Assembly: GCA_000171875.1 (NCBI GenBank)
Contig: ABHI01000003.1
Coordinates: forward strand, 372,001-436,000
Direction: 5' to 3'
DNA from: Flavobacteriales bacterium ALC-1
GTDB taxonomy: Bacteria > Bacteroidota > Bacteroidia > Flavobacteriales > Flavobacteriaceae
Length of the DNA stretch: 64,000 nt
In this document: in pieces, positions 18,089 to 61,737 of the stretch
Layout of the letters: each line of letters starts with the position of its first letter
How positions within the stretch are numbered: position 1 is the first letter of the stretch
Notes under the pieces: model-generated
Databases searched by the model: none
Told to the model about the DNA's origin: nothing
The model's input: only the letters and a program-made list of their open reading frames with translations
Program-made: the position numbers and the translations under genes

Positions 18089-18107
18089 TAATACTGCATT
18101 ATAGAAT

Positions 18108-18137
18108 AAAAAAGCGACTATTTTTAGTCGCTTTTTT
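18108..18137. terminator. Bidirectional intrinsic terminator
   Basis: The stem AAAAAAGCGACTA pairs with its complement across a 3-4 base loop, with A and T tracts at either side, between the convergent TPR and NlpC/P60 genes. Confidence 0.85.
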
Positions 18138-18886: not shown

Positions 18887-18895
18887 AAATAAAAT

Positions 18896-20074
18896 TTAAG
18901 CGCGTTCTAATACCATTGCAGAAGCACCACCACCACCATTACAAATAGCTGCAGCTCCAATCTTAGCATCGTTTTGATGTAATACATTGATTAAAGTAAC
19001 TAATATTCTTGCACCAGAACAGCCTAGTGGATGTCCTAAAGAAACTGCACCACCATTAACATTTACATTACTATCGTTTAATCCTAAAATTTTCATATTT
19101 GCTAAACCGACAACTGAAAATGCTTCATTAAATTCAAAATAATCAACATCACTTAATTCAATATTAGCTTTTGCTAATGCTTTAGGTAAAGCTTTAGCTG
19201 GTGCAGTTGTAAACCATTTTGGTTCTTGTGCAGCATCAGCATAACTCTTTATAGTTGCTATTGGTTTTAAACCAAGTTCATTAGCTTTTTCTCTACTCAT
19301 TAATACCATTGCAGCAGCACCATCATTAATAGTGGATGCGTTTGCAGCAGTTACAGTACCATCTTTTGTAAAAGCTGGACGTAAAGCAGGAATTTTTTCC
19401 ATCTTTACATTTGTATATTCTTGATCTCTATCTACAACAATAGCATCGCCTCTTCGCTGAGGAACTTCAACAGGAATAACTTCATCATTAAACTTACCAG
19501 CATCCCAAGCTGCTTTTGAGCGTTCGTATGATTGCACAGCAAACGCATCTTGATCTTCTCTTGAGAATTCATATTCAGTTGCACAAGCATCAGCACAAAC
19601 TCCCATTGCATTCTTGTCATAAGCATCTACTAAACCGTCTTTCTGCATACCATCTTCTAAAGTTGCAGGTCCAAATTTTGTAGCAGTACGTGCATGATAG
19701 TAATGAGGTATTGCACTCATATTTTCCATGCCACCAGCAACAACAATTTCTGCATCACCTAATTGTATGGCTTGTGCAGCTTGCATAATAGCTTTCATAC
19801 CAGAAGCACAAACTTTATTAATTGTTGTACAAGGAACAGTGTCTGGAATACCAGCATAAATGGCTGCTTGTCTCGCAGGAGCTTGTCCTGTACCAGCTTG
19901 CACTACATTACCCATCAATACTTCGTTTACCATTTCAGGTTTTAAATTTACTTTATCTAAAGCGGCTTTAATAGCAGTAGCACCTAGTTTTGGAGCAGGT
20001 ACACTAGATAAACTTCCTAAAAAACTTCCTATTGGTGTTCTAACAGCTGAAACAATTACAACGTCCTTATTCAT
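18896..20074 (-). CDS. Acetyl-CoA C-acyltransferase (thiolase)
   Basis: 392 aa from the ATG at 20074. An ATG 13 codons upstream would add residues unlike the family start MNKDVVIVSAVRTPIG. The nucleophilic Cys is in NKVCASGMKA (about 89), and the His and second Cys of the C-terminal half are in NEAFSVV and GHPLGCSGAR. It condenses two acetyl-CoA to acetoacetyl-CoA or runs in reverse in beta-oxidation; the isolated setting does not decide. It lies 9 bp before the NlpC/P60 gene. A weak promoter-like TTG-N21-TAATTTCG is seen upstream on the minus strand. Confidence 0.93.
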   Translation of the reverse strand: MNKDVVIVSAVRTPIGSFLGSLSSVPAPKLGATAIKAALDKVNLKPEMVNEVLMGNVVQAGTGQAPARQAAIYAGIPDTVPCTTINKVCASGMKAIMQAAQAIQLGDAEIVVAGGMENMSAIPHYYHARTATKFGPATLEDGMQKDGLVDAYDKNAMGVCADACATEYEFSREDQDAFAVQSYERSKAAWDAGKFNDEVIPVEVPQRRGDAIVVDRDQEYTNVKMEKIPALRPAFTKDGTVTAANASTINDGAAAMVLMSREKANELGLKPIATIKSYADAAQEPKWFTTAPAKALPKALAKANIELSDVDYFEFNEAFSVVGLANMKILGLNDSNVNVNGGAVSLGHPLGCSGARILVTLINVLHQNDAKIGAAAICNGGGGASAMVLERA

Positions 20075-20187
20075 TATGTTTGTGTTTATATTAATTGCTG
20101 CGAAATTAATCAATTTTTGAGAGATTTCTCAATGTATTGGCGATTATAGCGGTCTAAAATTTTAATATTTATTACATTTGATTGCTT

Positions 20188-22239
20188 ATGAATACACTTC
20201 TTAATAAATGGTATAAAAATCATGCGCTTGTATATAAGATATTATTATTCTTAGTTACAACGCTTTTTATTGTTTACCTATTCCCTAAAACGGGAAAATT
20301 TAGATATTCTTTTGAAAAAGGAAAACCATGGCAATCAGAGACTTTATTAGCTCCTTTTAATTTTGCTATAAAGAAGTCACAAGATGAAATTGATAAGGAA
20401 AGAATAGAAGTAGAAGAGAGTAGTTCTATTTATTTTGAAACTGATGCTACTATAAAAAATGTAGTATTATCAGATTATATACAACGTTTTAACCAAACCT
20501 TTAAGGATTCGAGCTATCTAAAAATTCAAGATTCTGATTTATATAACAAAGGAAGATCATTAATTAATGAACTTTATAATAATGGTGTTTTAGATTCAGA
20601 ATATAATTATTCTGATAGAAAATCGATAACATTAGTATCATCTAATACGATAAAAAAGGAATTAAAGTACGGTGAATTATATGAGATAAGCGAATTGCGT
20701 CAGCTTGTTGAAAAACACTTTAATAGTGGTATCTCTATTGAAAAAAGAAATAGGATGATGTCCGTCTTTTTTGACGTTATAAAACCTAACATTAAGATAA
20801 ATGACAACCTAACTCAGCAAGCGTTAGAAGAAGAGCTCTCTAAAATAGCATTGACCAGAGGAAGTATAGAAAAAGATCAATTGATAATTTCTAAAGGGCA
20901 AGTTGTTGAAGATACTCAATTCGATATCTTAGATTCCTTAAAGTCTGAATATGAATCTCAAGTTTGGAATTCAGCAAACTACAATTGGGTACTTGTTGCT
21001 TACACACTTTTAGTGGCATTAGCATTACTGATGCTTTTATTATTTCTTAGAAAATACAGGTTAGAGGTCTTTTTAAATAATACTAAAGTTACTTTTATAT
21101 TTTTCAATATTGCTCTAATGATTTTGTTAACCACATTGGTTATCAACTATAATTCACAATACATATATGTAGTACCTTTATGTATTTTACCGCTTATTTT
21201 AAAGGCTTTTTTCGATGCAAGACTTGGTTTGTTTGCACATGTATTAACGGTGTTGTTGCTAGGTTTTATAGTGCCTAACAGTTATGAATACATGTTTCTT
21301 CAGATTATAGCTGGTATAGTTACAATTTTAACGGTATCCGAATTGTATAAGAGGGCCAATTTGTTCATATCTGTAGGGCAAATTACGTTTATATACATAA
21401 TCGCATACTTTGCCTTTTTTGTAATTCATGAAGGGCAAATAACAAGTCTAAAATGGGAAGTATTTGGACTATTTATAATTTGTGGTTTAGCAACGTTATT
21501 TGTACAGCCTTTGATTTATATCTATGAAAAGATTTTTGGATTAGTCTCCGATGTCTCTTTGTTAGAGCTTTCGGATACAAACACAAAACTTCTTAAGGAG
21601 TTATCAAATAGAGCACCAGGAACATTTCATCATTCACTTAATGTAGCAAATTTAGCTGAAGCTTCAGCCAACGAAATTGGAGCTAATGCCATGTTAGTTA
21701 GAGTAGGAGCTTTATACCATGACATTGGTAAAATGAAAAACCCTACTTACTTTACTGAAAACCAAAGCACAGGAATTAATCCGCATGATGAACTGTCTAG
21801 CAGAGAAAGCGCCAAGATTATTATTGACCATACTATAAATGGAATAGAAATAGCTAAAAAGCATAAGTTACCAGATCGGGTTATAGATTTTATTAGAACT
21901 CACCATGGAACAAGTTTGGTGTATTATTTCTATATGAAAGAGAAATCTAGTAATGAAAATGTAGATATTACTGATTTTATGTATCCTGGACCTAAACCCT
22001 TCAGTAAGGAAACTGCAATTTTAATGATGTGTGATAGTGTTGAAGCTGCATCAAAAAGCTTAAAAGAACCTACGAGTACTAAGATTAATGAGTTTGTGGA
22101 TAATATCATTAATAAGCAAATGGAAAGTGGTCAATTCCTCAATGCTGATATCACTTTTAAAGAAATTCAATCGATAAAGAAAGTACTGAAGCTTAAGTTA
22201 GCTAACATCTATCACCTTAGAATAGAATACCCGGAATAA
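20188..22239 (+). CDS. 7TM-HD family phosphohydrolase (PgpH type)
   Basis: 683 aa from the ATG at 20188 (a TTG two codons earlier is possible). One N-terminal membrane helix (about 15-33), an extracytoplasmic 7TMR-HDED domain (about 50-260), seven membrane helices (about 270-460) and a cytosolic HD domain with GTFHHSLNVANLAE and the diagnostic YHDIGKMKNP. This is the architecture of PgpH, which hydrolyses cyclic-di-AMP; I infer that activity from the family. A TACATTTG element ends just 8 bp before the ATG, so the mRNA may have almost no leader. Confidence 0.92.
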   Translation: MNTLLNKWYKNHALVYKILLFLVTTLFIVYLFPKTGKFRYSFEKGKPWQSETLLAPFNFAIKKSQDEIDKERIEVEESSSIYFETDATIKNVVLSDYIQRFNQTFKDSSYLKIQDSDLYNKGRSLINELYNNGVLDSEYNYSDRKSITLVSSNTIKKELKYGELYEISELRQLVEKHFNSGISIEKRNRMMSVFFDVIKPNIKINDNLTQQALEEELSKIALTRGSIEKDQLIISKGQVVEDTQFDILDSLKSEYESQVWNSANYNWVLVAYTLLVALALLMLLLFLRKYRLEVFLNNTKVTFIFFNIALMILLTTLVINYNSQYIYVVPLCILPLILKAFFDARLGLFAHVLTVLLLGFIVPNSYEYMFLQIIAGIVTILTVSELYKRANLFISVGQITFIYIIAYFAFFVIHEGQITSLKWEVFGLFIICGLATLFVQPLIYIYEKIFGLVSDVSLLELSDTNTKLLKELSNRAPGTFHHSLNVANLAEASANEIGANAMLVRVGALYHDIGKMKNPTYFTENQSTGINPHDELSSRESAKIIIDHTINGIEIAKKHKLPDRVIDFIRTHHGTSLVYYFYMKEKSSNENVDITDFMYPGPKPFSKETAILMMCDSVEAASKSLKEPTSTKINEFVDNIINKQMESGQFLNADITFKEIQSIKKVLKLKLANIYHLRIEYPE

Positions 22240-48301: not shown

Positions 48302-49642
48302 ATGTCTGATGATTTTGATTTATTAGAAACAAATTCCAACGAAAAAACTGAAAAAGTCGATGTGAATTGGGGAAAAGCCATAGACCAAATGAAGTCTAAA
48401 TTGGCGCAAGAAGATGATCCAGAAAGTCGTCAGAAAATATTAAATGCTACATTGGACAATGTTGTTGATATGGCTGAGAAAGATAGAACGACCTTGCTTG
48501 ATGCTATTAAAGACCTAACCGACTATCAAGATGAAGTTGGTATTATGTTCGAAGGGTTTTCAGCATTAAATGCTGCTGAGCAGAAAATCATTGATGACGC
48601 TATTAAGCGTTTAGAGCGTGCTAAAGTTGAACTTGAAGATGCTAAAAACAAACCAGATACATGGTGGAACAACCTTTGGGGAAGAAAAGGAAAAATTAGA
48701 GATGCAGAGGAAGAGTTGAAGAAAGCACAAAAAGAACGTGATGCTTCAGACAATAAAGCAAAGGCTATGTTTCAGCAACGTATTGAAACAGCAGATGTTC
48801 AAACCTTGTTAAATGAATTGTCATTTAAAAGCCAGGCTGCAATTAAACGTTTAAAAGACAGAGAGCTAGAAATTAAAGAAGTAGAGGAAAGTCTTAAAGT
48901 TGCAATAGTTGAAGCTTCTAACAATCATACAAAAGCACTTCAAAAGAAAAAAGAAGTAGAAGCTAAGCTCGAAGAGCAGTATGCGTTATTAAAGCAAGCG
49001 CGCCAAGCTTTAGAAGAAGTTGCAGACAAACAATCTACTGAATACTCTGAAGCTTTAGAAAAAGTAACACAATTAGAACAAAAAGTTGAAGAACTTGAAG
49101 GTCTTAAAAACGCATACACCACACTTGCAGCTTCAAAAGATAGTTTTGTGCACAAACATAACTTAACGATTAAGGTTTTAACATCGTTACGTAGTAATTT
49201 ACAAACACACAGAGCTAAGTTGAAATCAGATACTGATGAGCGTCTTAAATATTATGATGGTTATGTTGTGGCTTTAAAAGCACGTACTGACCAAGAATTT
49301 GCAGCAATTTTAGAGCACTTGGGGGTTAAGACCGATGAGCATATTGGTGAAACTTTAGCTGCTATGCATACAGCAAGTGCTAAAGCACGTCAAGAAATGA
49401 TGGATAACATTCCAGTTCACGAAAAAGTAATGCAAGGTGTTTACGGTAGTTATGCTGAAGCTTTAAAAGAGATTAGGACTAAGGATGCTGAAATTCAGAA
49501 AAACTTTGCTGACCGTTATGGTATTGATATGAAAGAGATTTTTAATGAATACTATGAAGCAGATCCAAATGCACCAGCAGATGGGGGTGAACCAGAAGGT
49601 GAGCCAAAACCAGAAGCTAATGATGATGATTTGTTATCATAG
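48302..49642 (+). CDS. Long cytosolic coiled-coil protein of unknown function
   Basis: 446 aa, no signal peptide or membrane segment. Acidic N-terminus, two blocks of heptad-like coiled coil (about 90-175 and 185-285, rich in KAKAMF, EVEESLKV, LEQKVEELEGL), then a helical C-terminal region (about 285-415) with the conserved-looking VHEKVMQGVYGSYAEAL and an acidic Pro/Glu/Asp tail. It is loosely like TelA-type proteins but I do not claim the family. First plus-strand gene of the 48.3-61.7 kb set; its partners below include a AAA+ ATPase. Confidence 0.75.
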   Translation: MSDDFDLLETNSNEKTEKVDVNWGKAIDQMKSKLAQEDDPESRQKILNATLDNVVDMAEKDRTTLLDAIKDLTDYQDEVGIMFEGFSALNAAEQKIIDDAIKRLERAKVELEDAKNKPDTWWNNLWGRKGKIRDAEEELKKAQKERDASDNKAKAMFQQRIETADVQTLLNELSFKSQAAIKRLKDRELEIKEVEESLKVAIVEASNNHTKALQKKKEVEAKLEEQYALLKQARQALEEVADKQSTEYSEALEKVTQLEQKVEELEGLKNAYTTLAASKDSFVHKHNLTIKVLTSLRSNLQTHRAKLKSDTDERLKYYDGYVVALKARTDQEFAAILEHLGVKTDEHIGETLAAMHTASAKARQEMMDNIPVHEKVMQGVYGSYAEALKEIRTKDAEIQKNFADRYGIDMKEIFNEYYEADPNAPADGGEPEGEPKPEANDDDLLS

Positions 49643-49681
49643 TAGAGTAATTTTTATCTAAAAACCTTTAGTTAATTTTTA

Positions 49682-49864
49682 ATGAAAAGAATAGTTATAT
49701 TTTCTGTTTTCATTATTGCTTTATCAATAATGGCAGTCATCTTTATTAAATTTTCAAATGACCATACTGATTGTATTGTTGTTAAAGAAACAACAGTATC
49801 TGAAGATGGTTTAGTTAAAGTAACTACGACAAGGCATAGTTGTAACGAAAACTTCAATCTATAA
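49682..49864 (+). CDS. Small membrane-anchored peptide, 60 aa
   Basis: 60 aa: Lys-Arg, one hydrophobic helix (about 4-23), then a short extracytoplasmic tail with Cys at about 32 and 54 that could form a disulfide. It sits between the coiled-coil gene (39 bp) and the 349-aa gene (19 bp) on the same strand. The minus-strand frame over it is a shadow. Related short tails ending in Cys-rich repeats are common in Flavobacteriaceae; function unknown. Confidence 0.5.
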   Translation: MKRIVIFSVFIIALSIMAVIFIKFSNDHTDCIVVKETTVSEDGLVKVTTTRHSCNENFNL

Positions 49865-49883
49865 GCAAATTGCTAGGTAATAA

Positions 49884-50933
49884 ATGATAGTTACACCATT
49901 AGATTCAGCAGTATTAGACTCTAAAGAGCAGTATGTGTTCTATCACAAGATGATAGATTTTACGCTCAAAGAACTTATTGTTGCAGTTCAAGAAAAACAA
50001 ATCTTAAATCAACAAGAAGTACAGTTGTTTAAGCAGTACAGTGATTTACTTTTATATTCGATTGAAGCCATGCGTGTAAAGTACATGTATGATGATGAAG
50101 AGAATATGAAGGTCGATTTAACGGATTCTGGGTTTCCAAATTATTTAGAATTTCGTTATCTATTTAACGATTTAGCTTTACGAGAAGATTACCTAGGTAA
50201 GCTTACAGATGTTAACACATTAAAGGACGAATTTTTAGATACTTTAATGCGAAAAAAAGAACAGATTTCTAAACGAAAACTCTTCCAGGCAGCATCTATA
50301 GTTTATTATTCGTCGGCGAAAAAAGAGTTCATCTTCAACAGATTTGTTCAAGGTAAAATAATTGAAACACCTAAAGGTTCATCAGGCAATTATCTTGTAA
50401 GTTGGAGTTTTTATGATGTATCTCACAACAGACCATTTATCTGTTATATGTATTTTAATTATGATGGTAGAAATGCTCAAGACTATAAAGAAGAGATTTA
50501 TACCGTTTTAAAAAATGCTGCTGACCGAGAAATGACGATGGATACAATGGCATATGCTATTGATAAACGTTTGCCAAAAGTATTCCCTAAATTGATAAAA
50601 CGTGTGGATTTAGGACCAATTCATAATGTGTTTGCAAAGGATGAAAACAAAGTAACTCATGCTGTTTTGCAAGGAATAGCAAACAAGGAAATTCCTTTAG
50701 AATCTTATGCCATATCATTTAAAATAGATGAGTTGAAATCACAAAGTGAATTTAAAGAGGGCAGTTTTTTTAGTAAGCAAATCTTTCAGAAATGGGAGAA
50801 TGTCTTTAGACAGCGCTATGTATTTGCACCACATCGTATTATACAATTGCTATATAATAAAACACCAGAAATTATGAATAAGTTGGCTATGCCACCTATT
50901 CAAATTTCTGATTTAACTATTAATAATAAGTAA
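49884..50933 (+). CDS. Conserved protein of unknown function, 349 aa
   Basis: 349 aa with no membrane segment or signal peptide. The first half is helical (IDFTLKELIVAVQEKQ, LFKQYSDLLLYSIEAMRVKY), the middle has aromatic beta-strand blocks (NYLVSWSFYDVSHNRPFICY and MYFNYDGRNAQDY) and the end is helical with a Phe-Pro-Phe region. No named domain is recognised. It lies in line with the coiled-coil and AAA+ genes; a degenerate inverted repeat lies between it and the AAA+ gene. Confidence 0.75.
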   Translation: MIVTPLDSAVLDSKEQYVFYHKMIDFTLKELIVAVQEKQILNQQEVQLFKQYSDLLLYSIEAMRVKYMYDDEENMKVDLTDSGFPNYLEFRYLFNDLALREDYLGKLTDVNTLKDEFLDTLMRKKEQISKRKLFQAASIVYYSSAKKEFIFNRFVQGKIIETPKGSSGNYLVSWSFYDVSHNRPFICYMYFNYDGRNAQDYKEEIYTVLKNAADREMTMDTMAYAIDKRLPKVFPKLIKRVDLGPIHNVFAKDENKVTHAVLQGIANKEIPLESYAISFKIDELKSQSEFKEGSFFSKQIFQKWENVFRQRYVFAPHRIIQLLYNKTPEIMNKLAMPPIQISDLTINNK

Positions 50934-51011
50934 CGTCATAACGAGGAATGCAGTGACATGGTTATCTTTTCTTTTAGGAACAAATTACTTCACTTCGTTT
51001 GCAATGACCGA
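50934..51011. repeat. REP-like imperfect inverted repeat
   Basis: Left arm begins GTCATAACGAGGAATGCAGT and the right arm, read on the other strand, begins GTCATTGCAAACGAAGTGAA; the arms pair imperfectly over about 30 bp. Such intergenic elements (ends in CATTGC...GCAATG) are known as dispersed repeats in Flavobacteriaceae. A second degenerate copy is at 59392-59500. Confidence 0.6.
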
Positions 51012-51022
51012 AAATATAAAAC

Positions 51023-52981
51023 ATGGAACACAACTCAACTTTCCCTATAAAACAAAACGAACTCGATATGCTTCGTGATGAAGCAACGTCGTACTTAAAA
51101 TCTATTCAATGGGAGCAGAGCCAACGTGCTAAGAATAAAGATAATGATGGTAAAGATGAGTCTATTCTATTATATCTATCTAGAGCAAACAATGGTAGCA
51201 ATGTCAATGTAACCTCAGTGTCTAAAACCATTTTAGCATTAAAAAAACGCTTATTACCAGAATCTGTTGCGTTACCTATTCACTTAAACAATACCCTTTA
51301 TGCTGTCCAAGAAGGTTTAACTCTTGGTATTTGGATTAAGGATAGCTATTATGATGCTTCAGGTTTATCTACGTTAAGTGAAAACAAATCAGCTTTAGAT
51401 AACTCAGGAAAACGTGAGTACGAAAGTAAAATGCATACAGCAACAGCTTTTATGCTTTTTGCTACGGCTTATAAAGTGCTACATGATTTAAAGCCTCATG
51501 CTTCAGACGATTTATCAGTAATGAAACAAAAATTTGCTGGTATTCCAGAAGTGTCATTTATGACGCCTTTAAAAGGAATTTCGTGTCAACTATTTTATTA
51601 CGATAAGTATTTAGGACATCCAGATATTATAAAAACGGACAAAGACGTTATCGATTTTACAGTTGTATATTTTGAAGCCTTGATTGACGAAATTCAGTTA
51701 AGAAAAAGTAGTTTAGAATATACGGAAACAATTACTGATAGAACGTATAAGTTAGAAAAGTCGGATTTTGCGGTTTCAGGTTGGGAGAATGTGTTTTCTG
51801 GGACAGCAGTAAGTGTTGAATTTAATAAAATTCAATTCGAACAAATTGTAGGAAACAAAGATGCAAAGCACTTTGCTAGGCGATTAACAGAACGTATATT
51901 AAGTTATGATTTTGAAGCTAAGAAAAACCCATTTCAAGAGTTAGGCGGATTTATGCCAGTATTTATGGGCTATGGTATTCCTGGTACTGGAAAGAGTATG
52001 CTGATTGCAGCGATTGCAACACGACTGAAAGAGCATAGTGAAAATCTAGAGATTCCGTTTTTGTTTCACCCAATGCCAGATACCATTGTAAGTACCTTTC
52101 AAGGAGGTTCTGCAGAGAAAATGGTAGAGTGGATGAAGCCGTTACAAGACCCAACAAAACTCATTTTTGCACCAATAGATGATGCCGAAAATAATTTACA
52201 AGAACGAACTGCTCAAGGTGTTTCTGCTGGTGTAAAGGAAGTTATAGGTGTGTTTTTAAGATATACAGAAGGTGCTTATGCGGTAAACTATGGAAATAGT
52301 TCTATAGGTTTATTTACTAATCTACCAGAAATGCTTGATAAAGCGGTTATTTCTCGTGTTCAAGGTCGTTTTAAGATCGATGGAGCTCGTAATGAAAAGG
52401 ATTTTGTGGATCAAGATCATTTATGGTGGAGAAAACTAGAAAAGACAATGCCAGATTTTATAAATATGACTAATCCGAAAGATTATAAGTATTTAGATGC
52501 TCAGCAAGTAGCAAAGAATTTAGGCGAGATTTTAGATAAAGTAGATAAGCCAACAGAAGAACGCGTTTTAGATACGTTTGATAAAGTAGAAAAGAAGTAT
52601 AAAGACAATGAACATATGTTTTATGCGCATTTATATACAGAAATTCAGAAGATATTTCCATTCTTTTCGTCTCGTGATGTGCGTAATATTCAAAAAGCCG
52701 TATCGTTACGTCTAACAGATTTTGATTTAGAACAAGATTGGTTTGAAAATCCAGAAGTGTATTTTAAAAAGGATTATGACACTAAATTCGGCATGTTACA
52801 AGAACTCATGAGAGCTAACATGAAAGGATTAGACTTTAGTGATATTAGAAGACAAGAAGTAGTACGTTATTTAGATAACGTTGCAACAATTGCAGATACC
52901 GACTTTAAGCGTAAAGTGGATGCTAGAATTAATCAATTGAATATTGAGACAGAGGCTAGAGAGCAGTTTGGGAAACACTAA
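51023..52981 (+). CDS. AAA+ ATPase of unknown function, 652 aa
   Basis: 652 aa. The N-terminal 300 residues have no named motif. The AAA+ core begins with Walker A GIPGTGKS (318-325), then Walker B IFAPIDDAEN (381-390), a sensor-1-like Asn in GLFTNLPEML and an Arg-rich SRVQGRF (about 444-450). The C-terminal 190 residues are helical (KKYKDNEHMFYAHLYTEIQK, DIRRQEVVRYLDNVATIADT). The Walker B double Asp instead of Asp-Glu is unusual for AAA+ and may change hydrolysis. It probably acts on the coiled-coil or membrane proteins in the same cluster. Confidence 0.8.
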   Translation: MEHNSTFPIKQNELDMLRDEATSYLKSIQWEQSQRAKNKDNDGKDESILLYLSRANNGSNVNVTSVSKTILALKKRLLPESVALPIHLNNTLYAVQEGLTLGIWIKDSYYDASGLSTLSENKSALDNSGKREYESKMHTATAFMLFATAYKVLHDLKPHASDDLSVMKQKFAGIPEVSFMTPLKGISCQLFYYDKYLGHPDIIKTDKDVIDFTVVYFEALIDEIQLRKSSLEYTETITDRTYKLEKSDFAVSGWENVFSGTAVSVEFNKIQFEQIVGNKDAKHFARRLTERILSYDFEAKKNPFQELGGFMPVFMGYGIPGTGKSMLIAAIATRLKEHSENLEIPFLFHPMPDTIVSTFQGGSAEKMVEWMKPLQDPTKLIFAPIDDAENNLQERTAQGVSAGVKEVIGVFLRYTEGAYAVNYGNSSIGLFTNLPEMLDKAVISRVQGRFKIDGARNEKDFVDQDHLWWRKLEKTMPDFINMTNPKDYKYLDAQQVAKNLGEILDKVDKPTEERVLDTFDKVEKKYKDNEHMFYAHLYTEIQKIFPFFSSRDVRNIQKAVSLRLTDFDLEQDWFENPEVYFKKDYDTKFGMLQELMRANMKGLDFSDIRRQEVVRYLDNVATIADTDFKRKVDARINQLNIETEAREQFGKH

Positions 52982-52998
52982 TATTAGAAAAAAAAATT

Positions 52999-53751
52999 CT
53001 AATTGCCTTCAAACCAGTTTTTAAAGGTTGAAACTCGCTCTCTACTTACAATAATATCTTTATCAGCGTTTGCATTTACTACAATCTTTAGTCGACTATT
53101 AGAATACATGATAACATCATTAATTGCATTAAGGTTTAAAATATACGTTCTGTTTACTCTAAAAAAATCTTTAGGTTCTAGTATATGTTCTAAATCTTCT
53201 AGTTTATAATCTAACACAAATTTTTTATTATCATTTGTAACTAAAAACACTGTTCTTCCTTCAGCAAAAAACAAGGATGTGTTAGCTGTTTCTATTGAGT
53301 GTATATGATTGCCTATGCGTACTAAAAAACGATTTTTATACTTTTTTTGATGAAGTGCTTTTGATACATTTTCTATATCTGTAGGGAGATATTTTTTTAG
53401 ATTTTTAAACTTATTTAAAGCTTTTGATATATCTGTAAACGTTATTGGTTTTAATATATAGTCAATACTATTTACTTTAAAAGCATCAATAGCATATTCA
53501 TCGAATGCTGTAACGAAAATAACGGGCTTTTTTATTTGTACTTGGTTAAAAATATCAAAGCTTAAACCATCTGATAATTGAATATCCATAAATACAATGT
53601 CATAATCTTTTGCATTATTTTCAAACCAATTTACAGCTTGAGAAATGCTAGAAAGCTTAGCTACTATAGAGTACGATTCATCATACTTTAGTATGTAACG
53701 CTCTATTTTTTCAAGTGCAGGAATTTCATCTTCTATAAGTACAACCCTCAT
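52999..53751 (-). CDS. LytTR-type response regulator
   Basis: 250 aa. Receiver domain (about 1-120) with Asp pair in IEDE and the phospho-acceptor Asp56 in VFMDIQLSDG; Lys in ILKPIT is the conserved Lys of the receiver. LytTR DNA-binding domain (about 145-248) with FFRVNRTYILNLNAI and SRERVSTFKNWF. Last gene of the four-gene minus-strand operon, one base after the pseudokinase stop. Its likely site is the 21-bp-spaced repeat at 57309-57339. Confidence 0.92.
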   Translation of the reverse strand: MRVVLIEDEIPALEKIERYILKYDESYSIVAKLSSISQAVNWFENNAKDYDIVFMDIQLSDGLSFDIFNQVQIKKPVIFVTAFDEYAIDAFKVNSIDYILKPITFTDISKALNKFKNLKKYLPTDIENVSKALHQKKYKNRFLVRIGNHIHSIETANTSLFFAEGRTVFLVTNDNKKFVLDYKLEDLEHILEPKDFFRVNRTYILNLNAINDVIMYSNSRLKIVVNANADKDIIVSRERVSTFKNWFEGN

Positions 53752-53752
53752 A

Positions 53753-54772
53753 TTATGCTTTTACTTGTAATTTTGGAATTTTAATAAATCTAATTTCCTC
53801 TTGATCAAAAATACTGATTGGTTCTTCACTATATATAGAATATACAGATTGTAATTCTGTAATGCTATCTATGTTAAATTGCTCAGAAATTTTGTCATTA
53901 TGCTTGTATTCTATGCCTAGAAATGTATCTCCCTCAACTAGATTAATAGCCATTGGTTTTTCTTGTACAATACTAGTTTTAACAATGGTTTCTACTAATT
54001 TTAATAGGCTGCCAGGAACTACTAAAAAACTAGAATTAATAGTCCCTTTAAAGTTAAGTTTTCTGTAAGGTAAAAAATCAAATAATTTAACAAGATGTTC
54101 TACTGCTTGTAACTCTTCTTCAATAAGTACAAGCTGTCTTTTACCCTTAGAGAGTACATAGCGATAGGTGCTAGCAATGGTATCTATAAGGTCGTCAACT
54201 TCTTCTTTATCCTGTTTGGCAAGTACAATAATAGATTCTAAACTATCAAATAATAATGTAGGATTTATTTCATTTTTAAATTGAATAAAATCCTCTTCGA
54301 CTAATTGCTTTCTTAATAGCTCATCATTCAGCTTTTTTGTATTCACTTTATATAAGTAATGATGGCTTAGATTTAGTAGAATGTAAATAAAAGTTATTGC
54401 AGCAAAAATGCTATTAAAATTCCATAATTCTTCGCTGTTGGGAGAATAACCCGAAACGTATTTGTAATATATATATATAGCTAATGTCACAACACTAATG
54501 CAAACTATTAATGATGCAACAACTTGTATTAATAATGCTAAAATAAATGGTAAACGCTGAGGTAATTTTTTAAATAGTAATAATAAAAGACGAGAAACCT
54601 CTTGTATTAAAAACGAAAGCCCAATGCAAACATATAGCTCTTCACCTAAAAATTGCTCTTGTAATTGCTCTACATTATTATTGATGAGTAATAATAGTAA
54701 ATACACTAAAACACCACTAAATAAAGGACTTAGTAATCTAAAAAGCGGAAGATGTACAAATAATTTTTTCAT
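53753..54772 (-). CDS. LytS-type sensor kinase homologue lacking catalytic residues (probable pseudokinase)
   Basis: 339 aa. Four to five N-terminal membrane helices (about 14-32, 45-66, 75-103, 119-137), then a His_kinase-like region. The phospho-acceptor position reads NPTLLFDSL (170-178), where the family has NPHFLFNSL, so the His is replaced by Thr172. The N-box VENAIKHN is replaced by VETIVKTS (260-267). No G1 or G2 box is visible in the remaining 70 residues. It cannot act as a normal kinase and is better seen as a signalling partner. ATG overlaps the stop of the upstream intact kinase as TAATG. Confidence 0.85.
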   Translation of the reverse strand: MKKLFVHLPLFRLLSPLFSGVLVYLLLLLINNNVEQLQEQFLGEELYVCIGLSFLIQEVSRLLLLLFKKLPQRLPFILALLIQVVASLIVCISVVTLAIYIYYKYVSGYSPNSEELWNFNSIFAAITFIYILLNLSHHYLYKVNTKKLNDELLRKQLVEEDFIQFKNEINPTLLFDSLESIIVLAKQDKEEVDDLIDTIASTYRYVLSKGKRQLVLIEEELQAVEHLVKLFDFLPYRKLNFKGTINSSFLVVPGSLLKLVETIVKTSIVQEKPMAINLVEGDTFLGIEYKHNDKISEQFNIDSITELQSVYSIYSEEPISIFDQEEIRFIKIPKLQVKA

Positions 54773-55812
54773 TATGCTAGTACTGGGAATTTAACTTCAA
54801 AGTCTAAGCCTTGTGTAACATGTATCTGTGAATTACTAAGTAGTTGATATCTAGCTTCAATATTTTTTAAGCCTATATTAAAAGAAGTTATGCTTTTTGG
54901 TGATTGCGTAATGTTGTTTTTTACTGAAATAAAATGACCATCTGTCGATATATCAATTTTAAGCTTATGTTCAGTATCCATCTGATTATGTTTTACAGAG
55001 TTTTCTACTAACATTTGTAATGTTAATGGAGGAATTTTTGAATCTAAAAGAACATCAGGAATAGAAATGTTATAGTCAAAGGCTTTTCCGAAACGCGTTT
55101 CTATTAGAAGTAAATACGACGATACTAAATTCAATTCTTCTTTTAAAGACACTAATTTAGAATTATAACTGTTAAGTGTATAACTATAGATGTTTGCCAA
55201 GTTTCTAATATATTCCTCAGCAGTTTTAGAGTTTTTATATACTAATGACGAAATAGTATTTAGGTTATTAAATAGAAAATGAGAACTCAGTTGCGATTTT
55301 AGAGCTTTAAGTTGTAGGTCTATCTGTTTTCTGTCATAGGCTATAGAATCAATTTGAAGCTTAACGTAGGTGTAGTAAGAGTATAATGCAAAGTGAATAA
55401 TATTATAGACTAGCATAATCATGAACAGAATTATAGATAGTTTCACCAAAGCACTTTCATAGGATTCGGCTAAATTAATCTGAGCTATCTTTTTATATAA
55501 AACAACAAGAATAATAATTATAGCAAGACTTGCTAAAAAATTAAAAATAATACCTAGAAGAAATCTGTTTGCTAATTGTACGCGCCATGGTATTATTGCA
55601 TCTAGCTTTCTCGAAATAAAATAGCAGCTATATGCGACTAATACTCCAGAAAACACAGAGAGAATGATCTTCATAGGATTACTTTCACCATCTTCTGTGA
55701 CTTGACTAGCCTCAAAATAATAATATAGAAGTAATCCAAGTATAATACCAAGAATTGTAATGAAAAAATGCTTTTTCACAATTGGTTGATCTAGTTGGTT
55801 GAAGAATTTCAT
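54772..55812 (-). CDS. LytS-type sensor histidine kinase (His_kinase family)
   Basis: 346 aa. Four or so membrane helices (about 14-34, 49-68, 83-106, 124-147), then the His_kinase domain with the phospho-acceptor His178 in LSSHFLFNNLNTI and an N-box VENSVKHN (269-276), followed by a short C-terminal ATP-binding region ending in GLKNIEARYQLL. The catalytic set is intact. It presumably phosphorylates the LytTR regulator two genes downstream. In the same operon as the SDHY-repeat gene and a pseudokinase. Confidence 0.9.
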   Translation of the reverse strand: MKFFNQLDQPIVKKHFFITILGIILGLLLYYYFEASQVTEDGESNPMKIILSVFSGVLVAYSCYFISRKLDAIIPWRVQLANRFLLGIIFNFLASLAIIIILVVLYKKIAQINLAESYESALVKLSIILFMIMLVYNIIHFALYSYYTYVKLQIDSIAYDRKQIDLQLKALKSQLSSHFLFNNLNTISSLVYKNSKTAEEYIRNLANIYSYTLNSYNSKLVSLKEELNLVSSYLLLIETRFGKAFDYNISIPDVLLDSKIPPLTLQMLVENSVKHNQMDTEHKLKIDISTDGHFISVKNNITQSPKSITSFNIGLKNIEARYQLLSNSQIHVTQGLDFEVKFPVLA

Positions 55813-55880
55813 ATAACCAAGGTAATCAATCTAATTCAAAATATTAATGGATTAGATTAACGACCTTGGTTTCGGATCGA

Positions 55881-57245
55881 TTAGTCTACTGCTTTGGCAA
55901 CTCTACCATAATACGTGTCAGAGTTGATTGATTTCGCTGCATTTCTATAAGCAGTCTTAACACCTTCTGAAGAACGATTTACTTTATCTGCAAAAGCTAA
56001 TAACACATTAGACATATAATGATCAGAATTGATGTTTCTTGCCGAATTTAAGACAGTTATTAATTGATCTTCTGATAAATCTTGCTTAGCCAATTTCTTG
56101 TAAATAATTGCGGCGTAGTGATCAGAGTTTACATTTCGATTAACAAGTTCTAATAAGTTAGATATGCTTTTAGTACTTGTGTCTAGATTACTGTCTAGCA
56201 AATCTTTAATAACCTCAGTTGCATAGTGATCTGAATTGACATCACTAAGTGTTGCAATAAATGCATCATAAGCATCACTTGGCATATTATTCTCTCTAAT
56301 CACTTTTTTAAGCACTTGTGTTTTGTAGTGGTCAGAACTAATATCTTTTGATAATTCAATGATTTTTGATACGTTTTGAGAGTTTAAATCTCTCTTATCC
56401 ATAATTTGTGTGAGTACTGTAGATAAATAATGATCAGAATTTATAGTTTTAGAGATATCTAATAGTTTTGCCATTTGATTATCAGTAATTGACTTATCTG
56501 AGATAACTTTTTTTAAGACACTTGTTGCATAATGATCTGAACTCAAGCTTTTACTAGCATTAATATACGCATCAACAGTTTCATCATTTGCAAGAAAAGC
56601 GCTTTGATTACTTTTTAAAATTCCTGCTAAATAATGATCCGAATTAATACGTTTGCCAGCAGTCTCAATAACGGAAACGAGCTCACTTGAATTCAAACTT
56701 TTCTTTAATAAGAGTTTTAGATATGCAGATTGAACATAATCGCTATCCATTTGGCGTACTTCATTAAGCACGGCATTTGCGCCACCTTTTGCATAGAATC
56801 TATTTACTCTAGATTCTGCAGCAATGGTCGTAGTTCTTACGACTTCTGGTAATATTTCTGCTAACCAAGCTTTTCCTTCAGAATTATAGCTTTTTTCCTT
56901 GCGTCCGACATAATATTTTTTGATGAGTTTACCACTTCGATCTGATTCAATAAGAATGCGTCTTTTGCTTCCAAATGAAGATTTTGTGATTTCTATAAAC
57001 CCCCCATCACTAATCGCTGTAATATCTTTATCGTCAGCTGATATCGTAATATCTCCTTCGAATTCAATTTTAAAGTTTTTTCCATTAGTGCTAATCTGGA
57101 TTTCACTTTTCCCGTTGCTTTTAATTGAATAATTGGTTTTAGATTTTGATCTAGACTGTGCTAAAATTTCAGATGGTTGAATTAAGAGGAATGTTAAAAG
57201 AAGAATTCCTAAAATTTTGATTTGATTGATTTTTGATTTTTGCAT
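55881..57245 (-). CDS. Secreted 34-residue-repeat (SDHY) protein
   Basis: 454 aa. Sec signal peptide ending SEILAQ (about 30). Residues about 36-115 form a beta-rich domain (GKSEIQISTNGKNFKIEFE). From about 165 to the end there is a run of short helical repeats, each carrying [IVL][NS]SDHY: the Ser of this motif falls at 168 (as SDYV), 202, 236, 270, 304, 338, 374, 407 and 442 (as SDTY), a spacing of 34 residues for the first six. The period is that of TPR-sized alpha-solenoids, but the consensus differs. It is the first gene of the operon with the two kinases and the LytTR regulator, and likely is their signal input, target or both. Confidence 0.82.
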   Translation of the reverse strand: MQKSKINQIKILGILLLTFLLIQPSEILAQSRSKSKTNYSIKSNGKSEIQISTNGKNFKIEFEGDITISADDKDITAISDGGFIEITKSSFGSKRRILIESDRSGKLIKKYYVGRKEKSYNSEGKAWLAEILPEVVRTTTIAAESRVNRFYAKGGANAVLNEVRQMDSDYVQSAYLKLLLKKSLNSSELVSVIETAGKRINSDHYLAGILKSNQSAFLANDETVDAYINASKSLSSDHYATSVLKKVISDKSITDNQMAKLLDISKTINSDHYLSTVLTQIMDKRDLNSQNVSKIIELSKDISSDHYKTQVLKKVIRENNMPSDAYDAFIATLSDVNSDHYATEVIKDLLDSNLDTSTKSISNLLELVNRNVNSDHYAAIIYKKLAKQDLSEDQLITVLNSARNINSDHYMSNVLLAFADKVNRSSEGVKTAYRNAAKSINSDTYYGRVAKAVD

Positions 57246-57271
57246 AACTGTTTGTTTTATGATTGATAAGA

Positions 57272-57279
57272 CAAATGTA
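57272..57279 (-). promoter_or_regulatory. -7 element of the SDHY-LytTR operon
   Basis: TACATTTG on the minus strand, a perfect TAnnTTTG, 26 bases before the ATG at 57245. There is no TTG at the usual distance, which agrees with an activator-dependent promoter. Confidence 0.55.
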
Positions 57280-57308
57280 TGTTGATTGTAATGTCTAAAA
57301 AAATTGAA

Positions 57309-57339
57309 TGTAGTGAATCACATTATTTTTGTAGTGAAT
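57309..57339. promoter_or_regulatory. Two 10-bp direct repeats, 21-bp spacing (putative LytTR box)
   Basis: TGTAGTGAAT occurs at 57309-57318 and again at 57330-57339, start-to-start 21 bp, i.e. two helical turns. On the minus strand the repeats (ATTCACTACA) lie about 30 bp upstream of the TACATTTG element that serves the operon encoding the LytTR regulator. Spacing and position fit an activator site of a LytTR dimer. Confidence 0.65.
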
Positions 57340-57469
57340 TGTATATAGCAATATCATTTTATGATATGCTCTAATAAAAACTGAAAACAGAAGCTATAAA
57401 TAATAATCTTTAAGTATTCTTGTGGTTATTTAAAATCTATAGTCATTAGTAGATTATATTGATGATAAT

Positions 57470-57488
57470 TTACTCTATTTTAGAGTAA
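57470..57488. repeat. Inverted repeat, possible operator
   Basis: TTACTCTA-TTT-TAGAGTAA, an 8-bp perfect stem with a 3-base loop, without a T tract, so it is not a terminator. It lies about 60 bp before the predicted -7 element of the 411-aa gene. Could be an operator or chance in AT-rich DNA. Confidence 0.4.
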
Positions 57489-57574
57489 CATTTAAGACAA
57501 TTTAGCATCTAACATATAGATATTGATGCAACATATTTTATAATTAATATTTTTGTTTTATTAAACATGTACAA

Positions 57575-58810
57575 ATGCAAAAACTAAAAGTAGCAAACCT
57601 ATATAGAAGTGAACTTATTCCAGTAAGCGGAAAATTAGTTGAGCGTTACAATAAATGTCTTAGAACCTTAGGTTTTACTGAAACTAAACTCAAATCATTT
57701 TCTATTGATGGAGTAGGTTGGAGTCCTGAAGTTGCAGAAGAAAAAAAGGATATGCAATACCTTAATCATGGAGACGCAAATCCTCATGGTATTATTATAT
57801 CACCATTGCAAAAAGGGAAACCTGTGTATTTGCCATTTCATTCCTTTGATAGAGAAATGATGCAACATGTGTTTAGAACGCATGGTCAAAAAATTAATAA
57901 TATTACTAGAGATTCTGCTATATGTATTGATTTTGATCAAGATATCGATGTATTTTATGAGCCTCTAGACATTTTAAAATATGATGATGTTAGTATCACT
58001 TTTAGATTAATAGACAATCTAGAAGACAAACAGAAAGAGCAACTTATACTCGTTGACAAGTTTAAAGCCGGTAATAATTTTATAGACGAAACTATTCATC
58101 AAGAATTGTTAGATTCTGCCAATATTTATGGTGATTTGCGTAATAGAGATTTAAGTCTTCATCCTTTGCATTATACAGTAGGTTCTTTTTATTCAAGAGC
58201 TTTTGATGGTGTTTATGTATTACGTGATTTTATTAAACCTATTGTAGTTTTTGAAAGTAAAGAAATTTATAAAGAAGCTATAAAGGACACTATACATGAT
58301 GTGTTGATTTACCATATTTCGCAACCAGAGTTGGTAGATAAATTAAAAGACCATATCATTATTGAATGTGATTTGGAGTCTATGGTTAATACACCAAATT
58401 ACGATAGAATTAAAAAGTATGAATTAGCACAGTTTATAGAAGATGCAGAGCATCCCATTAAAGATATACTAAATAATAAAGCACTATTTAAAAGCTATTT
58501 GAATAAAATTGATATAAAGACACGTAAGCAAATAATGGGTGTTGAGTTATATCTCGAAAAATTAGAGCGAAGCAATGCGTATAAGTTAGAAGATTTGGTA
58601 GAACAATCTATGTATTTTTCTTTGCATCAGCCACATTCATCGTTATCAACAGAGCATCGCGATTTAATACACAAATTGCTAATTAACATAGCACCAAAAG
58701 ATGTTCTATTCTTGTATTGGTATGATAAAGAGCAATTTTATAAGAACTACGAAACTTGGGACGATTCTTTTAAAGATTGGGTAATTGAACGTATTCGTAA
58801 CAATATTTAA
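57575..58810 (+). CDS. Conserved protein of unknown function, 411 aa
   Basis: 411 aa, no membrane segment or signal peptide. A first part with beta-rich blocks (VGWSPEVAEE, NPHGIIISPLQKGKPVYLPF), a middle with YDDVSITFRLIDNLED and a helical C-terminal half (DIKTRKQIMGVELYLEKLE, FLYWYDKEQFYKNYETWDD). It lacks known catalytic motifs. It is separated from the rest of the plus-strand cluster by the minus-strand LytTR block and starts a second plus-strand run with the 178- and 564-aa membrane proteins. A TATTTTTG element lies 19 bp before its ATG. Confidence 0.78.
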   Translation: MQKLKVANLYRSELIPVSGKLVERYNKCLRTLGFTETKLKSFSIDGVGWSPEVAEEKKDMQYLNHGDANPHGIIISPLQKGKPVYLPFHSFDREMMQHVFRTHGQKINNITRDSAICIDFDQDIDVFYEPLDILKYDDVSITFRLIDNLEDKQKEQLILVDKFKAGNNFIDETIHQELLDSANIYGDLRNRDLSLHPLHYTVGSFYSRAFDGVYVLRDFIKPIVVFESKEIYKEAIKDTIHDVLIYHISQPELVDKLKDHIIIECDLESMVNTPNYDRIKKYELAQFIEDAEHPIKDILNNKALFKSYLNKIDIKTRKQIMGVELYLEKLERSNAYKLEDLVEQSMYFSLHQPHSSLSTEHRDLIHKLLINIAPKDVLFLYWYDKEQFYKNYETWDDSFKDWVIERIRNNI

Positions 58811-58851
58811 GAATTTTAGACTAATTTTATAAGAACCTTAAACACAACATT

Positions 58852-59388
58852 ATGGGAATTGAACTCGTCATCTTTATAGCTGCTATTTTATTCGGTATTT
58901 TTCTTTATTGGAGAGAATCCAATAGTAACGGTGTATATCGATTTGTAAATAAGATTGTAAATAGTAAAGATTTGCAAATGAAAGCAGATAACCCAAAAGG
59001 ATTTGTATATAGACAAGCGCTTTTACCACGTATCATTTTTATTGTGAGTTTGGTTTTAGTAGCGGCATTAGTAGTTGAATTTTTAACACCTCTTGCTGTA
59101 TTTTCAAGTTACAATGGTATTTCGGCTTTTGCATCTTTTGCTGTTGGAACACTTTTAGGAACCTATTTAGCCAACTTCGTTATAAAAACATCTGAAGTAG
59201 TTGAAGAAAAAAGCGATTCCATTGGTGATATGGTTGAAGGTGCTGTAGAAAAAGGAAAAGATTTTATTGAAGACTTAAAAACTAAAGAACCTAAAGTTGT
59301 TGAAGAGGTTAAAGAAGAGATCAAAACGGAACCAGAGGTCGAAAAACAATCTGCACGTGACCGATTGAAAGATAAGGGTCTTATGTAA
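58852..59388 (+). CDS. Three-helix membrane protein with charged cytosolic tail
   Basis: 178 aa. Membrane helices at about 4-20, 58-80 and 88-110, then a Lys/Glu/Val-rich tail (about 112-178) with repeated KEPKVVEEVKEEIK-like segments, probably an extended or coiled cytosolic arm. It is 41 bp downstream of the 411-aa gene. No named family. A charged tail of this kind could dock a soluble partner such as the AAA+ ATPase, but that is only a guess. Confidence 0.72.
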   Translation: MGIELVIFIAAILFGIFLYWRESNSNGVYRFVNKIVNSKDLQMKADNPKGFVYRQALLPRIIFIVSLVLVAALVVEFLTPLAVFSSYNGISAFASFAVGTLLGTYLANFVIKTSEVVEEKSDSIGDMVEGAVEKGKDFIEDLKTKEPKVVEEVKEEIKTEPEVEKQSARDRLKDKGLM

Positions 59389-59391
59389 GAG

Positions 59392-59500
59392 ATCATTAGG
59401 AGGAGTGACATGATGAAGTAATCTTTTTTAATTGAAAACTTAAACTATATAATCCAAAGATTGCCACAGCTGATTGAATAATCTGCTTTGCAATGACAAA
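59392..59500. repeat. Second degenerate REP-like inverted repeat
   Basis: The region opens GATCATTAGGAGGAGTGACA and closes AATCTGCTTTGCAATGACA. The ends match the two arms of the element at 50934 with insertions between. It occupies the gap between the 178-aa and 564-aa genes. No coding frame is seen in it. Confidence 0.5.
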
Positions 59501-59508
59501 AATATATT

Positions 59509-61203
59509 ATGATTAAAAACTACTGGAATAAAGGAAAAAAGCAAAAAGTAATAACGATTATTGTTGCACTGTTACTACTCATACTATTGTTCTTTTTTAG
59601 AGATGATTATCAGCCTGTTTTATTATTTATGAGAAAGTATATTTTTGTAATTCTTATAAGTTTATTGGTGCTGATTTTTGGATTGAGAAAGTTTAGAAAA
59701 ACAGCAAGCACAGGTGGTCGTTTGGGGGTTTTGGCGCTGTTAATTGCTTTTTTCGGACTCTTATATTTTGCTGGTTGGAACCAAGGCCTGTATGATTATA
59801 TGAAAACCTATAACGTTTTTAATAGTCTTAATAAAGTTGAAATTAATGAACTGCCTTTAACGCAAAACGAACGTATTCAACCCTTAAGAAACATTTTCTC
59901 TATGGCCAACGAAAGTGTCGGAGAAACCAAAGATGTATCCTTACCTCATTTGGTAAGAATTGGTACTGAGAATAAGTGGACGATGGCCATTCAGCCAAGT
60001 GAAAAATATGTGATGCAACAAGTTACTGACAATACAGAAGAAGTTTTTGCAGTGAGTAGCACAACACCTTTCCCACGTTTTTCTAATGAAAATAGAATAG
60101 ATGTTACCTTTTCAATAGGTGAATCTTTAAAATTTAGTAGAAACACTTACAATGCTGTTGTACAGCGTTTTAATCCATGGATGCTCTTTAATTATGAACC
60201 AAGTGATACCTTTTATATGAAAAATGATGAAGGTGCTTGGGTAGAAGTAGTGAGTTTAATCAAATGGAAAGGTTTCTTTTTTCCATATCCAACGTTTGGT
60301 GGTGTAATGATTATCGAAAATGGTGAGCACGATTTTAATGATTACGTAGAACGTATTACTATAGGAAAAGGCACATTTGTACATCCAGATGAGATTAAGA
60401 ATTACCCATTTCTAAATAAGCAGAATACTTTGGCAGAAAAAGTATCACAATTACAAGCCGAGTCTTTAAAGTTTTTAGGCGGATTTAGTGATCCACTACC
60501 TTGGAATATGGAAACTGCAGTAAAAATTCCATTAATGCCAAAAGATCAGAATCAACAACCTTATGTTACCGATTTTGATTTTGCAGGAAGTAATTCTGAT
60601 GCCTATAGTGGTTTATACCATTGGTTTGGACTAGAGCCAGTAGGGGATGAGCGCACAAGCCTAAGCTATAGTGTATTTATACCTGCTGATGGTAGCGATA
60701 AAATGTATTATTATGATCATGCGACCAAAAAGCAAGGTTATGCTGGTGTTTCTGCTATGCCGTTAAAAGTTAAAGAATCTCGTAAAGAATATGATTGGAA
60801 TGCAAGTACTCCAGTTGAGTTTAGACCATATATTAAAGACATTGCAGGCAGAAAGCGTATGTTCTTTTTAGGAACCATATCTTCTATTAGTGATACCGAT
60901 GCACAACAGTTTGATGGTTCGGCCACACCAGATTTAGTTTTAATTGATAGTGAATATAGAGATGTCATTTGGATAGATGTTAAGCATCCTAGTACTTGGG
61001 ATGAAGAAGTTTATAAGCAATTAAATGAAGCATGGAGATCTAGTGAAGGGATTGGCTATTTTTATCAGGAAAAACCAAAAGATGAAGATATTATGGAAAA
61101 AGCTTTAGACTCTTTAAAGATGATTCCTAAGGCAGATGATAATTCTACTATGATTGAAACTTTACAACGTCAATTAGATTCTTTGAAGGCTGTTGGGAAT
61201 TAG
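59509..61203 (+). CDS. Membrane-anchored protein of unknown function, 564 aa
   Basis: 564 aa. Three N-terminal membrane helices (about 12-30, 37-56, 70-90), then a large soluble domain (about 100-540) with aromatic-rich segments such as RFNPWMLFNYEPSDTF, WKGFFFPYPTFGG and NMETAVKIPLMPKD, and a short coiled C-terminal helix (MIETLQRQLDSLKAV). No family is recognised. With three helices the bulk should face the periplasm if the N-terminus is cytosolic. It belongs to the same uncharacterised cluster as the AAA+ and coiled-coil genes. Confidence 0.78.
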   Translation: MIKNYWNKGKKQKVITIIVALLLLILLFFFRDDYQPVLLFMRKYIFVILISLLVLIFGLRKFRKTASTGGRLGVLALLIAFFGLLYFAGWNQGLYDYMKTYNVFNSLNKVEINELPLTQNERIQPLRNIFSMANESVGETKDVSLPHLVRIGTENKWTMAIQPSEKYVMQQVTDNTEEVFAVSSTTPFPRFSNENRIDVTFSIGESLKFSRNTYNAVVQRFNPWMLFNYEPSDTFYMKNDEGAWVEVVSLIKWKGFFFPYPTFGGVMIIENGEHDFNDYVERITIGKGTFVHPDEIKNYPFLNKQNTLAEKVSQLQAESLKFLGGFSDPLPWNMETAVKIPLMPKDQNQQPYVTDFDFAGSNSDAYSGLYHWFGLEPVGDERTSLSYSVFIPADGSDKMYYYDHATKKQGYAGVSAMPLKVKESRKEYDWNASTPVEFRPYIKDIAGRKRMFFLGTISSISDTDAQQFDGSATPDLVLIDSEYRDVIWIDVKHPSTWDEEVYKQLNEAWRSSEGIGYFYQEKPKDEDIMEKALDSLKMIPKADDNSTMIETLQRQLDSLKAVGN

Positions 61204-61269
61204 TTGATTATACTGTAACTTTTACTAAGTTATATAGACCTATATATAAAGTCTTAATTATAGGTGTGT

Positions 61270-61737
61270 ATGGCATTTGGTATGCAAAAACGGGTATATA
61301 AACCTCGTCCTCGAAAACCATTTTCGAAGAGACGTAAAGTCTCATTTGCAGCTGCACCAAAATACAAGAGAGATTTTAAATATCAACCTTCAAATAATAG
61401 AGGGGATTATAATTTTAGTATCCTACTTTTTATTGTTATTGCTATTATTGTGAGTATAATGATTCCTAGATGGGTAGAATATGAAAGAATAAAGCACAGA
61501 CAAGAAGTTACCCTTACTACTAAAAAGGATAATAAAGTATTTGAGTTTTTAATGAAGTCGGGAAAAAAGCGATTAGATATTGGAGCAATTTCTGGAGCGT
61601 ATTCTGAGTTTCAACTAGCTTACGCCATTAGACCTGAAGACATAGAGTTAAATGAACTGCTATTTGAAACTTTAGAAATTCTATGCATAGATTATGATAA
61701 GCATTGTAGTAATTACAATAAATTAAAAAACAAATAG
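61270..61737 (+). CDS. Membrane-anchored protein with one TPR-like motif
   Basis: 155 aa from the ATG at 61270 (a GTG at 61264 would add two residues; an ATG at 61282 is also possible). A strongly basic N-terminus (KRVYKPRPRKPFSKRRK), one membrane helix (about 47-66, FSILLFIVIAIIVSIMI), and a soluble tail with SGAYSEFQLAYAIRPEDIEL, which reads like a single TPR. Last plus-strand gene of the cluster, 66 bp after the 564-aa gene. Function unknown. Confidence 0.72.
   Translation: MAFGMQKRVYKPRPRKPFSKRRKVSFAAAPKYKRDFKYQPSNNRGDYNFSILLFIVIAIIVSIMIPRWVEYERIKHRQEVTLTTKKDNKVFEFLMKSGKKRLDIGAISGAYSEFQLAYAIRPEDIELNELLFETLEILCIDYDKHCSNYNKLKNK

Follow-up and report, generated by a model that had tools for sequence, protein, structure and literature searches.

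The window considered here, a stretch of 64,000 nucleotides from Flavobacteriales bacterium ALC-1 (GenBank contig ABHI01000003.1), carries on its plus strand six genes, designated A to F, that very probably constitute a real, conserved and apparently undescribed multi-gene system, and whose products very probably form a machine. As read from gene content across genomes, the core of this system is A-B-C-D together with a membrane partner, and two smaller genes, A2 and G, are accessory. Our preferred functional reading, which we hold tentatively and at somewhat less than even confidence, is that they make up a machine which uses ATP to remodel proteins on the inner face of the inner membrane.

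The core genes of the window encode a coiled-coil protein of 446 amino acids (aa) (A, 48302..49642), a soluble protein of 349 aa without a Pfam family (B, 49884..50933), a classical AAA ATPase of 652 aa (C, 51023..52981), a 411-aa protein of mixed alpha/beta and then helical make-up (D, 57575..58810), a 178-aa membrane protein with a tail (E, 58852..59388) and a 564-aa membrane protein (F, 59509..61203). A first-pass annotation, made from the letters of the window and a list of their open reading frames (ORFs), had described eight plus-strand genes without named function as a single cluster and as the likeliest candidate in the window for something new. The coordinates and lengths agree with the ORF list; D, however, belongs to a named family of unknown function, PF20343/DUF6638. 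The idea of a functional unit survives in a trimmed form, the 60-aa and 157-aa genes (A2 and G) falling outside the core, and no description of the cluster was found in a search of the open-licence literature that covered no preprints and in which several queries were narrow.

Conservation of the gene set in Bacteroidota

A scan of genome contigs with C returned 555 confirmed relatives, and since only the best 80 were kept, near relatives dominate the resulting set of loci. Seventy-six of these 80 (L026-L101) come from Bacteroidota, except for one bin labelled Doudnabacteria; among named relatives, Winogradskyella and Ichthyenterobacterium are the nearest. Conservation of the neighbours in related genomes had been set beforehand, by the first-pass annotation, as the point on which the grouping would stand or fall, and it is directly established: order and strand of the core genes that were found are the same in all 76 loci, 66 of which have the full six, and in the 33 further loci described below. 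Eight of the ten incomplete loci have genes lost where the sequence ends nearby; the other two are L061 and L073, to which we return. C occurs in 33 of 36 other genomes of the same genus, and in a sample of 249 genomes of the family, the window's own included, C is present in 76 and D in 75. All 75 genomes with D carry C. A single genome, G492, has C without D; its completeness is 73%, and the match there spans half of C. In 74 of the 75, moreover, D follows C on its strand within 4.6 kb. The co-occurrence of C and D in this sample has a Fisher p of about 1e-63, uncorrected for kinship, a value that overstates independence because the genomes are related. It is from the conserved order and strand, together with this near-perfect co-occurrence, that we take A to F to be a functional unit.

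The run of eight plus-strand genes in the window is interrupted between C and D by four genes on the minus strand (52999-57245), which from their translations we take to be a LytTR-type regulator, a pair of kinase-like membrane proteins and an exported repeat protein of 454 aa. An insert that splits the window copy would be in keeping with a chance grouping of unrelated genes, an explanation that is nevertheless hardly credible in view of the order and strand kept in all 76 and 33 loci and of the joint occurrence of C and D. The insert's two kinase-like genes and its repeat gene are found in none of the 76 loci and a relative of the regulator in two, so that among these loci the insert is private to the window. 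We reject chance grouping for A to F; it may hold for the 60-aa A2 gene (49682..49864, plus strand) and the 157-aa G gene (61264..61737, plus strand), an A2-like peptide having been recognised in 7 other loci and G in 15 of the 76.

In the window, 27 bases before D (57548-57555), stands TATTTTTG, which resembles the consensus of the Bacteroidota -7 box, so that D-E-F may have a promoter of their own. A NudK-like NUDIX gene occupies the C-D gap of 38 loci (two checked; e.g. L026:12007-12651) and is absent from the window's gap. Genes for four-helix bundles (TIGR02436, Avd-like) amount to 26 ORFs in the B-C and D-E gaps of 21 loci (one checked; e.g. L036:9495-9857). Three Kordia loci (L080, L083, L100) have several kilobases of extra genes between C and D, and these and other loci of the Kordia type contain S26-type signal peptidases and SnoaL-like proteins (Pfam, on the counterparts in G520), as well as short peptides with a common leader, which resemble precursors of ribosomally synthesised and post-translationally modified peptides. 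D is split into two ORFs in L081 (14157 onward) and L093 (12780-14011), by frameshift or assembly error, and the complete A-F set in the bin labelled Candidatus Doudnabacteria (L099) reflects either transfer or a binning error.

Exchange of the membrane partner in Pseudomonadota and in a giant phage

Relatives of C and D are adjacent on Rhizobiaceae megaplasmids, and C is found with D in a Vibrio record as well. In all, 33 loci from Pseudomonadota and phage were compared: 3 from the best-80 scan, 5 plasmid records, 1 phage contig and 24 further loci. The fourth Pseudomonadota locus among the best 80 (L104, Rhodobacteraceae) is the same contig as L152. Two overlapping samples around genome G590, both of which include it, were taken as Alphaproteobacteria (class) and Pseudomonadota (phylum); the loci cover 23 of the 26 PF20343 matches of the phylum sample, G942, G1010 and G1013 being left out, and PF20343 was found in none of 14 control genomes. 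The genes found stand in the order A-B-C-D on one strand in 33 of 33 loci, and the only locus that lacks A (L152) is on a contig that starts just before B. In one locus, L021:10851-12596 of Sinorhizobium meliloti Ak57, C and D are separated by a gene with an endonuclease domain and by an IS4-type transposase.

What changes is the membrane protein. Where Bacteroidota have E and F, a membrane partner of another kind, DUF1523 or DUF2333, is recognised in 31 of the 33 loci. DUF1523 comes after D in 20 loci, 18 of which have a small two-helix gene in between; DUF2333 comes after D in 10 and, in the phage, stands before A. The identities were checked with Pfam in four DUF1523 and two DUF2333 members and assigned in the rest by small profiles of our own. 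This exchange is observed directly, and no sequence kinship was found among the three partner types. On a tree of C they fall in blocks, with 5 changes against a least possible 3 and a mean of 23.8 after shuffling; the Bacteroidota and Doudnabacteria rows were all labelled E+F by clade, L154 (from genome G436) has neither beside its A-B-C, and several branches are long, that of the phage included, which leaves the placement of the phage unsure. F, DUF1523 and DUF2333 each set membrane helices beside a soluble domain, as judged by hydropathy, and these soluble domains would lie outside the cytosol. Because all three bring helices and a soluble domain, the constant feature is a cytosolic engine together with a membrane protein, and we therefore favour ATP-driven remodelling at the inner membrane.

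The same pattern can be read otherwise. In the main rival explanation, which we regard as unlikely, C works under the guidance of an adaptor as the unfoldase or activator of a single membrane client: it would extract, insert or activate F, DUF1523 or DUF2333, and A would be no more than a stalk or adaptor that forms no polymer. A partner is indeed recognised in 31 of 33 loci, 66 of 76 loci have E and F after D, and the partner family switches with the clade; C of the phage, in addition, bears a weak likeness in its AAA domain alone, at values far under the curated cut-offs (1.8e-7 for SpoVK to 1.2e-4), to the CbbX/SpoVK/EccA type, a group that includes activators. Three partner types without kinship would nonetheless be odd for a single specific client, and two loci, L022 (Vibrio) and L024 (R. 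leguminosarum), have no recognised membrane partner nearby, an absence that is awkward for the remodelling reading too.

As regards the partner families themselves, DUF1523 is named in the accessible excerpts of the open-licence literature only in tables or as an insertion target. A DUF2333 gene adjoins a NUDIX gene in a Pseudomonas, according to an excerpt of one report (PMC5256989). The appearance of NUDIX genes both there and in the C-D gaps of Bacteroidota may be coincidence.

The phage locus is part of a 359-kb IMG/VR contig (L158, IMGVR_UViG_3300035698_035310) and reads DUF2333-A-B-C-D. Its neighbours there match phage families (an Rz-like spanin, a polymerase exonuclease subunit, a deformylase, a Clp-type ATPase), and from their translations we take two other genes to be SmpB-like and DnaJ-like. 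A T4-type capsid profile scores above its cut-off on this contig over just 41 residues, and a terminase profile found no match on it. The phage C shares 42 to 49% identity with the C proteins of seven Alphaproteobacteria and 38% with the Vibrio C, and because of these identities an acquisition from an alphaproteobacterial host is possible. A second viral copy was not found: two scans returned L158 alone, and three others were insensitive enough to miss L158 as well. Among annotated phages there was no match to D and one partial match to the AAA domain.

A phage copy brings to mind an anti-phage or conflict system, of which L158 would hold a hijacked or counter-acting version. This is quite improbable in our judgement. 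The patchy occurrence, the single giant-phage copy and a weak likeness of C to IetA (1.7e-5, PADLOC) are what can be said for it; the likeness, however, is confined to the AAA domain, no IetS-like partner is present among the eight proteins of the window, and the remaining PADLOC matches are weak and involve coiled-coil or AAA parts. The flanks, furthermore, indicate a stable position in the chromosome: within 10 kb, 41 of the 76 loci have a gene resembling the ABC-F gene of the window and 27 have one resembling its hutG-like gene, both names being our own reading and both counts lower bounds because the loci reach at most 10 kb to each side. A stable site of this kind, and the presence of C in 33 of 36 other genomes of the genus, speak against a conflict system.

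Protein features and a proposed mechanism

Only two of the eight window proteins pass a Pfam cut-off, C and D, and NCBIfam, PADLOC and PHROGs gave weak or partial matches. By its motifs C is a classical-clade AAA ATPase (PF00004, 36.3 bits against a cut-off of 21.2). A part of about 300 residues at its N terminus is followed by the Walker A motif GYGIPGTGKS, FQG (359-361), DD (386-387), R445 and R449, and a C-terminal part; we take FQG to be the pore loop and the two arginines to be arginine fingers, in keeping with the anatomy of AAA proteins. The usual AAA Walker B has DE, and the DD that the first-pass annotation had noticed along with the AAA+ domain is borne out (D386, D387). Walker A, the DD Walker B and a [FY]QG pore loop are present in 86 of 86 C sequences, the window's included, and R445 and R449 are invariant in 22. 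Classical AAA ATPases that combine an aromatic pore loop with arginines acting in trans are hexamers that pull protein chains.

Profile searches of the PDB with A, B, D and F gave no useful match. A, present in 72 of the 76 loci and 32 of the other 33, with exceptions at sequence ends, is predicted to be all-helical, with acidic disordered ends (DDFDLL at the N terminus, DDLLS at the C terminus). Were A instead a ClyA-type alpha-helical pore-former or another membrane-inserting protein, as is very improbable, C, D and the membrane genes would handle its loading or export. In B the residues SGFP (82-85), W174, D178, P184, D227, P235 and G244 are invariant or nearly so. D belongs to PF20343/DUF6638 (107.3 bits against a cut-off of 27; 1.1e-30), as do its relatives in Vibrio and Sinorhizobium; the name DUF6638 was not found in the open-licence literature, and an AlphaFold2 model of D with a mean predicted local distance difference test (pLDDT) score of 92.6 found no match in the PDB.

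Among the membrane proteins, hydropathy gives one helix each in A2 and G and three in F, the counts for F and G agreeing with the first pass; for E, to which three had been ascribed, it gives two and a third at 1.59, just under the threshold of 1.6, and in 56 of 71 members of the E family this third helix attains 1.6 or more. The tail of E, predicted to be cytosolic, ends in a conserved basic motif, SARDRLKDKGLM, in 66 of 71 sequences, the window's included. In F three N-terminal helices precede about 470 soluble residues, predicted to be periplasmic.

From these features a mechanism may be sketched. C would be a hexameric motor that threads protein through its pore, as is expected of its family, and A its likely client or scaffold, the acidic disordered ends offering possible handles; B and D would be soluble co-factors, acting as adaptor or regulator. 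The membrane module would be exchangeable, consisting of E, with its basic tail motif, and F, with its large periplasmic domain, in Bacteroidota, and of DUF1523 (usually with the two-helix peptide) or DUF2333 in Pseudomonadota. In Bacteroidota the E tail, with its basic end, may dock on the acidic ends of A; such a docking role for the tails, like the topology beyond hydropathy and charge, is something that we infer. The work done might be the cycling or disassembly of an A-based assembly, or the extraction of the membrane partner, perhaps in the upkeep of the envelope or in its response to stress. The membrane-remodelling and stress-response machines to which the first-pass annotation had likened the cluster would be compatible with these features.

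A number of observations weigh against a remodelling machine so conceived. The shared membrane partner might be the substrate instead of an anchor, and the structure model of A is weak (mean pLDDT 69). The gene set is not everywhere intact: large inserts can part C from D, as in L061 (Tenacibaculum), where some 9 kb (11951-21087) separate them and D is truncated because the stretch ends there; in L073 the 1.95 kb from C upstream to the end of the contig show no trace of B; and in G436 some 750 kb separate A-B-C from D-E, with F missing from about 8 kb around the latter. The distribution is patchy as well, with the system in 76 of 249 genomes of the family sample and, being rare outside the family, in 4 of 296 of a Bacteroidota sample, the window's genome included in both, and PF20343 in 4 of 240 and 26 of 398 genomes of the class and phylum samples around G590.

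Relation to known remodelling systems

Should our reading be correct, a whole ATP-driven machine of Bacteroidota and Pseudomonadota would come into view, with four families of no described function (A, B, D and F), and DUF1523 and DUF2333 could now be tied to a AAA motor. The exchange of partners would then be a natural experiment on how a single cytosolic engine can be coupled with various membrane proteins, and in the phage copy there would be a second handle on the use to which the machine is put. By its sequence the motor is an ordinary member of a known superfamily, the AAA+ remodelling machines, and it is accompanied by several partner families of unknown function.

No PspA, PspC or toastrack protein of the phage shock protein (PSP) envelope stress system was found by Pfam among the eight proteins of the window. 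TelA of the TelA/Ter group is a helical protein linked with envelope or metal stress; A is helical also, but it has no Pfam match to TelA (PF05816), which gave 0 matches in the genome of the window. The CbbX, SpoVK and EccA proteins are approached by the AAA domain of the phage C at a distance, as described above, and membership in DUF6638 supplies D with a family name only.

The closest likeness is to the endosomal sorting complex required for transport (ESCRT)-III and its ATPase Vps4 in eukaryotes, to archaeal Cdv and to the bacterial PspA/Snf7 neighbourhoods, all of which place a classical AAA motor beside a long helical partner. Profile matches of C in the PDB, which run through its AAA domain, include Vps4 chains together with Cdc48, proteasomal ATPases, katanin and Pch2. 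The differences lie in the partners: Pfam gives no Snf7 or PspA match for A (E up to 1) or for three Pseudomonadota A proteins (E up to 0.1). Pfam likewise gives no MIT match in C. The 50 fold matches listed for the weak model of A include no PspA or ESCRT-III chain, an absence that does not weigh against such a fold. We know of no counterpart of B, D, E or F in the ESCRT-III/Vps4 or PspA/Snf7 systems. Bacterial AAA+ ATPases encoded beside PspA or Snf7 proteins are described in an excerpt of PMC11237479, where ATP-dependent membrane remodelling is proposed for them. The window's system is thus best read as Vps4-like in its logic, with a helical partner that differs by sequence from that of ESCRT. 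It is a somewhat unlikely further step to see in it an independent Gram-negative counterpart of ESCRT-III/Vps4, in which a AAA motor, aided by the cofactors B and D, would act on the inner membrane to cycle a non-homologous coiled-coil scaffold, A, and in which exchangeable adaptors would reach into the periplasm, the whole being carried by a phage as well.

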